From Devosia sp. (lineage in GTDB: Bacteria > Pseudomonadota > Alphaproteobacteria > Rhizobiales > Devosiaceae): a DNA stretch of 64,000 nucleotides. Numbering within the stretch: position 1 is the stretch's first letter; each line of letters starts with the position of its first letter. The notes beneath the pieces are model-generated. The model did no database searches. It was not told the origin of the DNA and saw nothing but the letters and a program-made list of their open reading frames with translations. Positions 23,166-28,603 of this stretch are shown here, in pieces. Where the stretch lies: positions 3,125,001 to 3,189,000 of the forward strand of contig CP051235.1 in the NCBI GenBank assembly GCA_017794705.1. Direction: 5' to 3'. A program made the translations under genes and the position numbers.

Positions 23166-24821
23166 ATGGCGCGCCAATTCATCTACCACATGTCCGGTCT
23201 TTCCAAGGCCTATCAGGGCGGCAAGAAGGTGCTGGACAATATCCATCTCAGCTTCTACCCCGATGCCAAGATCGGCGTTCTGGGGCCGAACGGCGCCGGC
23301 AAGTCCACCCTGTTGCGCATCATGGCGGGCATCGAGAAGGAATTCACCGGCGAAGCCTGGGCCGCGGACGGTGCCAGGATCGGCTACCTGCCGCAGGAAC
23401 CGCAGCTCGATCCTTCGCTCGATGTGCGCGGCAATGTCATGCTCGGCGTCAAGGAAAAGCAGGCCATCCTCGACCGTTACAACGAGCTGATGATGAACTA
23501 TTCCGACGAGACGGCGGAAGAGGGCGCAGCCCTGCAAGATCAGATAGATGCGGAAAATCTCTGGGATCTTGATTCAAAGGTCGAAATGGCGATGGATGCG
23601 CTGCGCTGCCCGACGGGCGATGCTTCCGTCGAGACGCTTTCGGGCGGTGAGAAGCGCCGCGTGGCGCTTTGCCAGTTGCTGCTGGCCGCACCCGATCTGC
23701 TGCTGCTTGACGAACCGACCAACCATCTCGATGCGGAAACCACCGCGTGGCTTGAAAAGCATCTGCGCGAGTTCGCCGGCGCCGTGTTGATCATTACCCA
23801 CGACCGCTATTTCCTCGACAATGTCACCGGCTGGATTCTTGAACTCGACCGCGGCCGTGGCATTCCCTACGAGGGCAATTATTCCGCCTATCTGGAGCAA
23901 AAAGCCAAGCGCTTCGCCCAGGAACAGCGCGAGGACGAGGCCCGTCTCAAGGTGCTGCAGCGCGAAGCCGAATGGATGGGCAAGAGCCCGCAGGCCCGCC
24001 AGGCCAAGTCCAAGGCCCGCATCCGCGCCTACGACGAACTGGTCAAGGTCAACGAAGAGCGCACTCGCTCATCCTCGGCCCAGATCATCATTCCGCCCGG
24101 TGAACGTCTGGGCCAGAATGTCATCAAGTTCGAAAACGTCTCCAAGGGCTTTGAAGACAGGCTGCTAATCGACGATCTCAGCTTCGAACTGCCCGCCGGC
24201 GGCATTGTCGGCGTTATCGGGCCGAACGGGGCGGGCAAGACCACCCTGTTCAAGATGATCACCGGGCAGGAACAGCCGGACAGCGGCACCATCACGATTG
24301 GGGATTCTGTCCACCTCGGCTATGTCGACCAGAGCCGCGATGCGCTCGACGCCAAAAAGACCGTCTGGGAGGAAATCTCGGAAGGCAATGACGTCTTCTA
24401 TCTCGGCAAGCGCGAGATGAACTCCCGCGCCTACACCTCCGCCTTCAACTTCAAGGGCGGCGACCAGCAGCAAAAGGTCGGTTCGCTCTCCGGCGGCCAG
24501 CGCAACCGCGTGCACCTGGCCAAGATGCTGAAGTCAGGCGCCAACGTGCTGCTGCTCGACGAACCGACCAACGATCTGGACACCGAAACCCTCGCCGCCC
24601 TTGAAGAGGCCCTCGAGGAATTCGCCGGCTGCGCCGTGATCATCTCCCACGACCGCATGTTCCTCGACCGCCTAGCCACCCACATGCTCGCCTTCGAAGG
24701 CAACAGTCATGTCGAATGGTTCGAAGGCAACTTCGAGGATTACGAGAAAGACAAGATCAGGCGGCTGGGACAGGACGCGGCAAACCCGCACCGAATCAAG
24801 TACAAGCCGCTGACGCGGTGA
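23166..24821 (+). CDS. ettA: Energy-dependent translational throttle protein EttA (ABC-F)
   Basis: 551-aa cytoplasmic ABC-F protein with two ATPase halves: Walker [10 protein letters not shown] at 40-48 and again near 350, two LSGG signatures and two LLLLDEPTN Walker B motifs, joined by a charged helical linker (about 240-310). It binds the ribosomal E site and gates early elongation by ATP/ADP state. Ends KYKPLTR, close to the EttA tail. An ATG at 23091 is upstream but out of the usual family start; [12 protein letters not shown] at 23166 is typical. Confidence 0.95.
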
Positions 24822-24830
24822 GGGAAGGCG

Positions 24831-25118
24831 TCATGCCCGGATGGAGGAGGTCAGATTCTCGATGTAGAGTTCGGCCGCATGTTTCGACTTGAAACACCCA
24901 ACGTCTTGATAGTCCGGTGTATGTTCTGCGGCGTCCGATGACCTCAAGACGAAAAACTCGAAGTCGGCTTCTTCGACTACATAGGTGAGGTCGTCGCTCT
25001 TAATGGGCGACATGTTTCGGGCGCCGCACTCCGGGCATTCGTCGTCGCACATGCACGACCATTCATCAGCCCAAGTCTCATTGCATTCCGCGCATTCGTA
25101 GTGATTTACAAACCACAT
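24831..25118 (-). CDS. Zinc-ribbon protein of unknown function
   Basis: 95 aa. Four or more Cys pairs near the N-terminus (CAECNETW, CMCDDECPECG) form a treble-clef or zinc-ribbon-like unit, followed by about 50 residues with no motif I recognise. GGGGG lies 5 bases before the ATG. It is 27 bp downstream of the DpnI-like gene on the same strand and shares its lower GC, so the two may form one operon and one acquired unit. Confidence 0.75.
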   Translation of the reverse strand: MWFVNHYECAECNETWADEWSCMCDDECPECGARNMSPIKSDDLTYVVEEADFEFFVLRSSDAAEHTPDYQDVGCFKSKHAAELYIENLTSSIRA

Positions 25119-25145: not shown

Positions 25146-25913
25146 CTAAATTAGTTGATACTTCCCTCGTCCGGCGAAACTCAAGTATCCGTTGTCCCTA
25201 AGCACCTGCAATTGTTGGCGAATTTTGGGTCTAACGTTGTTGTTTTCAGGATAGATTTTCGAAAGATGCTTCTCAAAAGCATAAACTTCGTCCAGCCTGA
25301 ATTCCGGTGAGTTCAACGCCTCAACGCAATTCAGTACTTCAACCAACCAGCCTCTGCCTTCCAACGATTGGTTCTGGAGAAATCTGGTGCGCTCCCATCG
25401 GTCCCTGACTTCGTTTTTTGCAACCGGTGTGCCGTTCTTGATCAGGAAGAGCTTACCTGCTTCTGGGACCTTGCTTATCAGGATATTCGAGCCAACCCAG
25501 CCAGCACGCCGTGCTGTCGGCTTCAATGCTCTCCGCCGTTCCACTATGGCCGGGGTGAAGAAGTGTTTTGGCACGACAAGCAGGTTCTGCACTTGAAGAG
25601 CAGTGCCATCATAATTCATCAGAAGGAGATTGGGATTGGAGTTTGACTGGAGCCTTGCGATCTTGGTGTCATAGGCACCATCAGCAACCTTTTTGCCGAA
25701 CGCGGGCTTTTTATGGGCCTTAAGCTCAAACTCGTCGTTGCAGTTATCGCAATGAAAATCTGCGAGCGGCTTGTTGTTTGCGTATTGCGTCAATTTCGCA
25801 TGGCCGCAATTGGGGCAGTAGCCCCAGTCCGCAACCCATCGCTCTGTCCAAAACCGGGCTTTTTGAGAGCCACTTTCGAACGGGGTTTGTGATTCCTCGA
25901 AACCCATCTTCAT
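25146..25913 (-). CDS. DpnI-family methyl-directed restriction endonuclease
   Basis: About 255 aa, similar end to end to Streptococcus DpnI, which cuts Gm6ATC. Zinc-binding Cys33, Cys36, Cys55 and Cys58 flank the PD-(D/E)xK site: Asp52 (LADF), Glu63 and Lys65 (FELK). PTARRAGWVGSNI, NSNPNLLLMNY and the C-terminal winged helix KIRQQLQVLRDNGYLSFAGRGKYQ (in pieces) also match DpnI. The ATG at 25913 is chosen; a TTG two codons earlier is possible. No methylase gene is nearby, as expected for a type IIM enzyme. GC and codon use look lower than in neighbours, suggesting transfer. Confidence 0.92.
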   Translation of the reverse strand: MKMGFEESQTPFESGSQKARFWTERWVADWGYCPNCGHAKLTQYANNKPLADFHCDNCNDEFELKAHKKPAFGKKVADGAYDTKIARLQSNSNPNLLLMNYDGTALQVQNLLVVPKHFFTPAIVERRRALKPTARRAGWVGSNILISKVPEAGKLFLIKNGTPVAKNEVRDRWERTRFLQNQSLEGRGWLVEVLNCVEALNSPEFRLDEVYAFEKHLSKIYPENNNVRPKIRQQLQVLRDNGYLSFAGRGKYQLI

Positions 25914-26000: not shown

Positions 26001-26128
26001 CGTCACCCTCGGGCTTGACCCGAGGGTCCATGATCAGGCTGCACGCGGCACCGTCGTTCGTTTGAAGGAACGACCCACCATCGCGCTGAAGCCCTGCCTG
26101 GATACTCGGGTCGAGCCCGAGTATGACG
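26001..26128. repeat. Inverted pair of Rhizobiales-type palindromic repeat
   Basis: ACCCTCGGG (26005-26013) pairs with CCCGAGGGT (26019-26027), and ATACTCGGG (26102-26110) with CCCGAGTAT (26116-26124). The whole second unit is an inverted copy of the first, both bordered by CGTCA, so the two can also pair with each other. This CTCGGG-xxxxx-CCCGAG core is a common intergenic repeat in Hyphomicrobiales. Confidence 0.75.
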
Positions 26129-26155
26129 CGGGGGGAGAAGGGGCGCAGCTTGTTG

Positions 26156-26294
26156 CTCCCCTCCCCCTTGTGGGGAGGGGTTGGGGGTGGGGGTCGCGCG
26201 AAGCGCAATCAAAAATGCTGTGCTGCGTTGCCATTTCTTTTTGGCCCTTGCGGGCCAACCCCCCACCCTGACCCTCCCCACAAGGGGGAGGGAA
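26156..26294. repeat. Long inverted repeat of G/C-rich CTCCCC...GGGGAG type
   Basis: The arms CCTCCCCCTTGTGGGGAGGG (about 26158-26178) and its inverted copy (about 26272-26293) extend into TTGGGGGTGGGGG and its complement. They enclose about 60 bp. The same motif is a frequent intergenic element in rhizobial genomes. It can form a long hairpin or cruciform. Confidence 0.7.
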
Positions 26295-26299
26295 GGCGA

Positions 26300-26903: not shown

Positions 26904-27773
26904 ATGGCACTTTCGTTCGACTGGAAGCCAAAACTCTTGTCGGCGGCGGACGAGGAGGTCTTCGAAGCCGCGCGTGAGGCCGAAACCTGCCAACTTGGAC
27001 CGCAAAGCCTGAAACAGGATGGAGTCCGGTCCGGCGAACTGCGCCGTGCGCGGCACATGGGAGGCAACTCCGGCGTCTGGCCGGACATTTCCCGCGACTA
27101 TTTCACCTACGTGCCTGCCGGTCTCGACCCCGCCAAACCGGCGAACCTGCTGGTCGTTCAGGACGCGCGCCTTTATCTGGCAGACCAGGTGGCGTTGCCA
27201 ACAGTTCTCGATAATCTGATTTCGGCGGGTGAACTCGAACCCACCATCGCCGTTCTGGCGGAGCCGGGGGACGTCAAGGATCAGCCCAAAGGATCGCGCG
27301 GCAACCGCAGTCGCGAATATGACGCTGTCAACGATATGTACGTCCGGTTTCTGCTCGGCGAATTGCTGCCGGAGGCGCTCGAAGGTTTGAATGTCACCAA
27401 AGACCCCAGGAAACGCGCCATTATGGGCATGAGTTCGGGAGGCATATGTGCGTTCAATGCCGCGTGGGAGCGGCCGGACCAGTTCGGCAAGGTGATCAGC
27501 CACGTCGGCAGCTACACAAACATTCAGGGTGGGCACATCTACCCCTCGCGCGTGCGCCAGAACGCCAAGCGCGAACTTCGGGTGTTCCTGCAGGGTGGCG
27601 TCAAGGATCTCAACAATGCCTTTGGAAACTGGCCGATCGCCAACCACGACATGGCGGCCGCGCTGGCCTACAGGAACTATGAGTTCCGCTTCGAATTCGG
27701 GCTGGGCGGTCATTCGATGGATCATGGCGGGGCCATCATGCCGCAAACGCTCAAATGGATTTTCCGGAAATGA
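26904..27773 (+). CDS. Enterochelin-esterase-like alpha/beta hydrolase
   Basis: 289 aa, cytoplasmic, Esterase-D/Fes-like. Nucleophile elbow GMSSG gives Ser177; RVFLQGGVKDL near 230 suits the acid; GGHSMDHGG at 268-276 carries the catalytic His (270 or 274). Such esterases act on siderophores or on other acyl esters, and no siderophore genes are nearby, so the substrate is open. Its stop overlaps the next hydrolase gene in an ATGA, so the two are co-translated. Confidence 0.85.
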   Translation: MALSFDWKPKLLSAADEEVFEAAREAETCQLGPQSLKQDGVRSGELRRARHMGGNSGVWPDISRDYFTYVPAGLDPAKPANLLVVQDARLYLADQVALPTVLDNLISAGELEPTIAVLAEPGDVKDQPKGSRGNRSREYDAVNDMYVRFLLGELLPEALEGLNVTKDPRKRAIMGMSSGGICAFNAAWERPDQFGKVISHVGSYTNIQGGHIYPSRVRQNAKRELRVFLQGGVKDLNNAFGNWPIANHDMAAALAYRNYEFRFEFGLGGHSMDHGGAIMPQTLKWIFRK

Positions 27774-28603
27774 ACCTGTCCGTCGGCACCGCCAGATTTG
27801 CCCTGGTCGACGAAGGCGAGGGCACTCCGATTGTCTTTCTGCACGCCGGGGTGGCCGATCATCGCATGTGGCTCGGCCAGATCGATCTGGCTGCGGACCT
27901 CGGGTTCCGCGCCATCGCCTACGACCGGCGGGGGTTTGGCGGTACGATCTGCGACCCGGACGAAGGCTTTTCGAACGTGGGCGATCTGGAAGCGCTGCTG
28001 GATGCGCTGCAGGTGCGCTCCGCCATTCTGGTCGGCTGTTCGCAGGGCGGGCGGATTGCGATTGATTTCGCGCTCGCGCATCCCGAGCGGGTGATTGCGT
28101 TGGTGCTGGTGTCGTCAGCGGTCAGCGGCGCCCCCGCCGATGAGGATTATCCGGACGCCTACCAGCCGCTGATCGCCGCCTACGAGATGGCGGAGGAATA
28201 TGATGATCCCGACATGATGAACAAGGTCGAGGCGCATGCCTGGCTCGACGGGCCGGGCACCCCCGGCAACCGGGTGACGGGGCCGTTGCGCGACCTGTTT
28301 TACGATATGAACGGCATTGCGCTGCGCCATCCCGAACTGACTGCCGAGGAAGAACCACCGTCCGCGTGGGACCGCATCAGTCGGCTCAATCAGCCGGCGC
28401 TTCTGGTCTCCGGGTCGCTGGACTGGAGCTACATTCTGGAGCGACACGACCATCTCGAAGCCGAAATGCCCAATGCTTTCGCTGCGATGATTGAGGACAC
28501 CGCACACCTGCCCAGCCTTGAGCGGCCCGACCTGTTCAATCCGCTGCTCGAGGAGTTTCTCGACGCGCTATTCGGATCAGACGAGGAAGAGGAGGACGAC
28601 TGA
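27770..28603 (+). CDS. Alpha/beta-fold hydrolase
   Basis: 277 aa. Oxyanion motif FLHAGVADHRMW near the N-terminus, nucleophile in VGCSQGG, Asp in VSGSLDWSY and a catalytic His in DTAHLPSLERPD give the full triad of the AB_hydrolase_1 family. Substrate unknown. A Met at 27755 is an alternative start, but the ATG at 27770 overlaps the previous stop as ATGA. Acidic tail (DEEEEDD). Confidence 0.9.
   Translation: MNLSVGTARFALVDEGEGTPIVFLHAGVADHRMWLGQIDLAADLGFRAIAYDRRGFGGTICDPDEGFSNVGDLEALLDALQVRSAILVGCSQGGRIAIDFALAHPERVIALVLVSSAVSGAPADEDYPDAYQPLIAAYEMAEEYDDPDMMNKVEAHAWLDGPGTPGNRVTGPLRDLFYDMNGIALRHPELTAEEEPPSAWDRISRLNQPALLVSGSLDWSYILERHDHLEAEMPNAFAAMIEDTAHLPSLERPDLFNPLLEEFLDALFGSDEEEEDD

Follow-up and report, generated by a model that had tools for sequence, protein, structure and literature searches.

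Known DpnI-type systems and the locus in Devosia

Among the closest described relatives of the locus reported here is that of R.DpnI (dpnC) in Streptococcus pneumoniae, a type IIM enzyme acting at Gm6A|TC in a Dam-less host, whose gene lies at the DpnI/DpnII/DpnIII exchange locus and whose natural operon partner we take to be DpnD; no relevant description of the function of DpnD/PcfM was found in the literature searched. DpnI genes without a methylase were described long ago as well, namely the drg genes (dam-replacing gene; NmeBII) of Neisseria (PMC4269198, PMC516771), whose point of insertion is the dam locus, next to leuS, in carriers without Dam activity and have a GC content of 40.5%, compared with 52% (PMC4269198). 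In addition, the winged-helix fusion m6A-dependent endonucleases HhiV4I and Ahi29725I sense Dam methylation with the winged helix and need no cognate methylase (PMC11037411). PADLOC holds a model for the type II methyl-directed restriction enzyme (mREase_II), which covers the nuclease only.

The window, that is, the whole stretch of 64,000 nucleotides from Devosia sp. analysed here (positions 3,125,001–3,189,000 of one 3.31 Mb contig), carries a dpnI homologue at 25146–25913 on the minus strand. It shares with R.DpnI the two-domain architecture, homology over the full length, the functional residues and a host without detected Dam. The main differences are the sequence itself (45% identity), the adjacent small gene, which codes for a 95-aa acidic zinc-ribbon protein (ZRP) instead of DpnD, and the location beside ettA. 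The ORF adjacent to dpnI has no match to PF14207 (DpnD/PcfM-like) and could not be aligned to the DpnD found in Sulfurovum (L156), and the pneumococcal dpnC-dpnD cassette is thus not what is present in the window. With drg it has in common the GC content below that of the genome and the lack of a methylase, but the surrounding ORFs contain no methylase remnant and the neighbours are ettA, an esterase gene and a hydrolase gene, unlike a dam-replacing insertion of the Neisseria type. As for HhiV4I and Ahi29725I, their nuclease domains are HNH or GIY-YIG, whereas that of the window is PD-(D/E)xK. An earlier note on this DNA had spoken of a nuclease without methylase, which is misleading if it is taken to mean a solitary gene, because the conserved ZRP gene adjoins.

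A full-length DpnI homologue

The dpnI reading frame of the window is intact, starts with ATG at 25913 (a TTG 6 bp upstream is also possible) and encodes 255 amino acids, with an N-terminal catalytic domain containing zinc-type cysteines (DpnI, PF06044, E = 4.7e-67) followed by a C-terminal winged helix (DpnI_C, PF17726, E = 2.8e-29), which is the full-length architecture of the DpnI family. The protein also matches PADLOC mREase_II (E = 3.6e-91), and its residues 10–253 match the solved R.DpnI (PDB 4esj/4kyw, i-Evalue 1.3e-74), the identity quoted above extending across 242 aligned residues. Residues were compared in the alignment with R.DpnI according to the roles given in PMC4117772: the active-site residues D53, E64 and K66 (also L65), the base-readout residues S17, Q18, N48 and R126, the methyl-pocket residues L129, R135, W138 and G140 and the winged-helix residues K229 and R231 are all retained, and the sole differing position among those compared is N77, which has no reported effect on specificity in R.DpnI (PMC4117772). 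Moreover, with the exception of S17, the functional positions are nearly invariant in 80 named DpnI homologues. The cysteines C34, C37, C56 and C59, which we presume to bind zinc, are likewise all retained. Judged from its sequence, the ORF is a full-length DpnI homologue and an orthologue of R.DpnI, and the match that the earlier note had drawn, including the PD-(D/E)xK residues, the zinc cysteines and the winged helix, is borne out by the two Pfam domains, the structure match and the kept residues.

From these residues the nuclease very probably has DpnI-type specificity. That it now acts on a different methylated site, or has lost its activity, might be argued from an identity of only 45% and from the decay common among its relatives, as in the interrupted homologues L075, L079 and L083; with the ORF intact and the residues reading G, C and the methyl groups all kept, such a change or loss appears improbable.

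The dpnI frame is interrupted or truncated, by decay or by sequencing error, in L107, L129, L148 and L154 as well as in L075 and L083, where it is frameshifted, and in L079, where it is shortened to 60 residues. In the Hyphomicrobiales there are also short DpnI-like proteins of about 150–200 aa (L015, L016, L017 and L018, also L084–L087), which consist of the catalytic domain only, without the winged helix, and in which E64 is replaced by Q (D...QVK), yet the RRAGW methyl-pocket motif is kept. These short proteins are a separate subfamily.

Methylases of the host and GATC sites

The methylases of the genome to which the window belongs were surveyed by family searches that covered CcrM, Dam (TIGR00571), D12-class and N6_Mtase proteins, and the genome completeness is given as 93%. 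A CcrM of 376 aa is encoded where it usually lies, between rnhB-like and mutY-like ORFs. Within the families searched, no protein lies above the TIGR00571 cut-off for Dam (114.85), the best one being the D12-class methylase with 51 bits, and N6_Mtase gave only a fragmentary match of 22 bits. The D12-class methylase is represented by one protein of 352 aa (L002:1033-2091, also in L088), which in the PDB search is closer to 7m6b than to DpnM, and which has no FNVPFG motif and DPPF for DPPY, whereas four true Dam proteins have both FNVPFG and DPPY. This protein is an orphan methylase without the Dam TRD motif. The earlier note had expected CcrM to be present and Dam to be missing, and had set in advance the finding of a Dam-type methylase as the result that would speak against it; within the families searched, CcrM was found and Dam was not.

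With CcrM present and no Dam found, the host's own GATC sites should be unmethylated. There is no avoidance of GATC in the window (451 sites seen, 426 expected under a Markov model). By geometry, methylation of GANTC by CcrM gives neither Gm6ATC nor a doubly methylated ApT step, and DpnI and CcrM should therefore be compatible, with which their coexistence in this genome agrees. Dam above the cut-off was found in none of 23 DpnI carriers. In a draw of 399 genomes across the phylum, Dam is present in 74 and DpnI in 9, and no genome exceeds the cut-offs for the two together, a comparison that is underpowered (P = 0.15).

In one Flavobacterium MAG (L153:8961-12295), an intact dpnI, with a 68-aa ORF beside it, has directly upstream a Dam-like methylase that seems to be intact (FNVPIG, DPPY) and downstream a truncated one resembling DpnA. 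An active Dam together with an active DpnI would be self-destructive, and the MAG may be a chimera or the methylase inactive.

A zinc-ribbon gene beside dpnI

The ZRP gene is located at 24831–25118 on the minus strand, 27 bp downstream of dpnI and on the same strand, so placed that the two genes may be co-transcribed. The product is acidic (pI 4.2, net charge -15) and has no match in Pfam, NCBIfam, PADLOC or PHROGs at default thresholds. Its AlphaFold2 model (pLDDT 94) has an N-terminal zinc ribbon followed by a C-terminal beta-beta-beta-alpha domain, and a structure search of the PDB with it gave no significant match. Against viral structures, the best match is a protein of Pseudomonas phage KPP25 (E = 1e-3), and small phage proteins match part of ZRP with about 2 angstrom over about 50 residues at weak E-values, while in the sequences of phages, plasmids and viral contigs the matches are to the zinc-ribbon half only. 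An alignment of 33 sequences has 12 invariant and 16 nearly invariant columns, and most of the invariant ones are cysteines and tryptophans of the N-terminal half. ZRP and the DpnD/PcfM-like proteins are likewise small proteins encoded beside dpnI, but they have no detectable sequence similarity, and ZRP has the N-terminal zinc ribbon.

The two genes are conserved neighbours and are inherited together. In the family, dpnI occurs in 10 of 136 genomes, and ZRP adjoins it in eight of the nine genomes that bear ZRP (Fisher 1.7e-10); in an order-wide draw of 398 genomes, ZRP is found in three of the four genomes with a full-type dpnI (Fisher 3.8e-6). Among the named Hyphomicrobiales dpnI loci, ZRP is adjacent in 34 of 39, downstream in 30 and upstream in 4, and in a Rhodobacterales locus it is upstream as well. 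The adjacency is seen both at ettA and in contexts without ettA. Furthermore, the identity matrices of DpnI and ZRP over 37 loci are correlated (r = 0.85), whereas 2000 permutations gave no value above 0.47; the correlation may partly reflect species history. Considering all this, ZRP is likely to be a functional part of the module.

The other view is that DpnI stands alone and that ZRP is an unrelated gene travelling with it, for example a second defence or regulatory passenger at a variable site. Purified R.DpnI works in vitro as a single protein (PMC4117772), and each of the two genes occurs without the other: two full-length ZRP copies without dpnI lie on apparent mobile elements in the order-wide draw (G196 and G365), and ZRP is absent from 5 of the 39 Hyphomicrobiales dpnI loci, one of which (L122) lies beside ettA. 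It follows from the former, together with a third such case (G051), that ZRP need not act through DpnI, and from the latter that DpnI can exist without ZRP. Nevertheless, the co-occurrence of dpnI and ZRP is very strong, and the two have stayed adjacent across many genera, whichever of the gene orders is present and whatever the genomic context, which makes co-travelling alone rather unlikely. As to the kind of partner that ZRP would be, its position mostly downstream of dpnI is unusual for an antitoxin or a controller protein.

The third case is an ettA site (G051, L097:622-1607) that has ZRP and a CopG-like/RelE-like toxin-antitoxin-like pair but lacks dpnI, as if dpnI had been lost from the site or replaced there.

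The ettA site and the origin of the module

The 3' end of an ABC-F (EttA-type) gene at 23166–24821 on the plus strand converges on the ZRP gene; it is genome context outside the module. In nine of the ten family carriers, dpnI is beside ettA or a few kb from it on the same contig, and ettA adjoins the module in 13 named loci too, from Devosia, Mesorhizobium, Chelativorans, Rhizobiaceae, Oricola, Agrobacterium and Afifellaceae. At its other end, the occupied site is bounded by an alpha/beta hydrolase gene (27755–28603, plus strand), the orthologue of which follows ettA within about 0.9 kb in the non-carriers L040, L042, L044, L050 and L051. This indicates a variable site that is either occupied or empty. 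The ABC-F gene, the esterase gene and the hydrolase gene were judged to be ordinary neighbours.

Between dpnI and the next gene there are two different REP-like palindromes in tandem (26007–26295, no strand assigned): an imperfect palindrome pair of the CGGGCTTGACCCGAGGGTCCA type, an extragenic repeat at 26007–26122, and a 45-bp inverted repeat with 80% complementarity, a REP-like extragenic palindrome at 26156–26295. Related 12-mers are present in other Hyphomicrobiales loci, and nothing found links either palindrome to the module.

The GC content of dpnI is 0.50, compared with 0.606 for the window, and none of 1265 windows of 768 bp has a lower value. The carriers in the family are patchy as well, being spread over 5 of 16 genera. 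The low GC and the palindromes are real, and the earlier note had taken the low GC together with the repeats to suggest that the gene was acquired. If this genome had recently obtained the gene from a low-GC donor, which would be compatible with the function of DpnI, both the GC content and the patchy distribution could be explained. However, dpnI genes in general share the GC deficit, since it is found relative to the flanks in all 35 ZRP-type loci measured (mean -0.104); the gene tree, with SH-aLRT as the only support values, groups the window gene with Devosia within an essentially alphaproteobacterial clade of 60 rows; and the same ettA site is used in several families. Recent acquisition is therefore unlikely and was rejected on the gene tree and the general GC deficit, while the findings agree better with a gene that has long resided in Alphaproteobacteria, or has repeatedly been exchanged among them, at a shared site. 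DpnI homologues are not rare but common in Alphaproteobacteria, to which 57 of the best 80 named dpnI loci belong, in a set that was retrieved with an alphaproteobacterial query and whose clade counts are not a census. A scan of genome contigs for DpnI relatives returned 0 with a single-protein query and 545 with an alignment query, and among plasmids and phages two Neisseria records cover most of the protein, the others being winged-helix-only fragments.

Small genes beside dpnI in other clades

Small genes of several other, mutually unrelated families lie beside dpnI in other clades. A 72-aa acidic family occurs at nine loci of Caulobacterales, Maricaulales and related bacteria, and a 63-aa family at eight loci, mostly of Patescibacteria; in Sulfurovum (L156), a true DpnD/PcfM is encoded beside dpnI (PF14207, E = 9.2e-13). 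The predicted fold of the 72-aa family is beta-beta-alpha-beta-beta, and a DpnD/PcfM-like phage protein is among its better named structural matches (TM 0.55/0.65, E = 0.22), which is only a hint that the modelled fold is DpnD/PcfM-like. No alignment was obtained between ZRP and the small families of the other clades. A tentative generalization would be that DpnI-type restriction has two components, in which the nuclease stays nearly constant and the small adjacent partner has been replaced several times while doing the same job, such as sparing the host; the partners would then be ZRP in Hyphomicrobiales, the 72-aa acidic protein in Caulobacterales/Maricaulales, DpnD in Sulfurovum and the 63-aa protein in Patescibacteria.

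The loci with small genes beside dpnI were grouped into one set of nine (L131, L132, L136, L138, L145, L150, L157, L162 and L171), one of eight (L152, L160, L163, L165, L168, L169, L175 and L177) and several smaller ones (L164/L172/L173, L142/L154, L144/L166 and L149/L159). In addition, at three loci, two from Patescibacteria and one from Dehalococcoidia (L160:8321-9293, L165:6844-7838 and L175:2330-3381), dpnI starts where a truncated fragment (72–94 aa) of a beta-class adenine methylase resembling DpnA ends, or overlaps it. At these loci dpnI appears to have integrated into a methylase gene, in parallel to Neisseria drg in dam.

Proposed function and significance

The reading that we favour, with fair assurance and on the strength of the homologies and gene neighbourhoods described above, is that of a methylation-dependent restriction module with two genes, one for a self-safe nuclease and one for ZRP. 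The best reading of the nuclease itself is a putative self-safe enzyme aimed at Dam-marked DNA. It would sense methylation with both the winged helix and the catalytic domain as it scans DNA, and would cut G(m6A)TC bluntly where both strands are methylated. In the host, where CcrM would mark GANTC and Dam would be missing, the abundant GATC sites would be unmethylated and uncut, and incoming DNA, whether of phages, of plasmids or taken up by transformation, would be destroyed if it came from Dam+ bacteria or from Dam-encoding phages. For ZRP, the reading that we prefer is that it would modulate the nuclease, either through contact with DpnI or through competition for the surface with which DpnI binds DNA, resulting in fewer off-target cuts or a tuned activity; we regard such modulation as possible rather than probable.

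A main role in gene regulation or physiology has been proposed for the gonococcal Drg, since N. gonorrhoeae deleted for drg had an altered biofilm and a changed expression of 195 genes (PMC4269198). No mechanism is known for such a role, and the patchy distribution within the family argues against a housekeeping gene, so that we consider it most improbable for the Devosia locus, in comparison with restriction of Dam-marked DNA.

In the papers searched, a body of literature without most subscription papers and REBASE, no description of ZRP as a partner of DpnI was found. The nuclease is a known one, and what it forms with ZRP is apparently an undescribed two-gene module; the presence of the same small zinc-ribbon gene beside dpnI in most relatives suggests a second component. 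DpnI is among the most used enzymes in molecular biology, and the conserved partner occurs in genetically tractable rhizobia (Bradyrhizobium and Mesorhizobium), where the question of the partner is directly testable. For the carriers of the module, the prediction is that DNA from Dam+ E. coli should transform them poorly and that Dam- donors should help.
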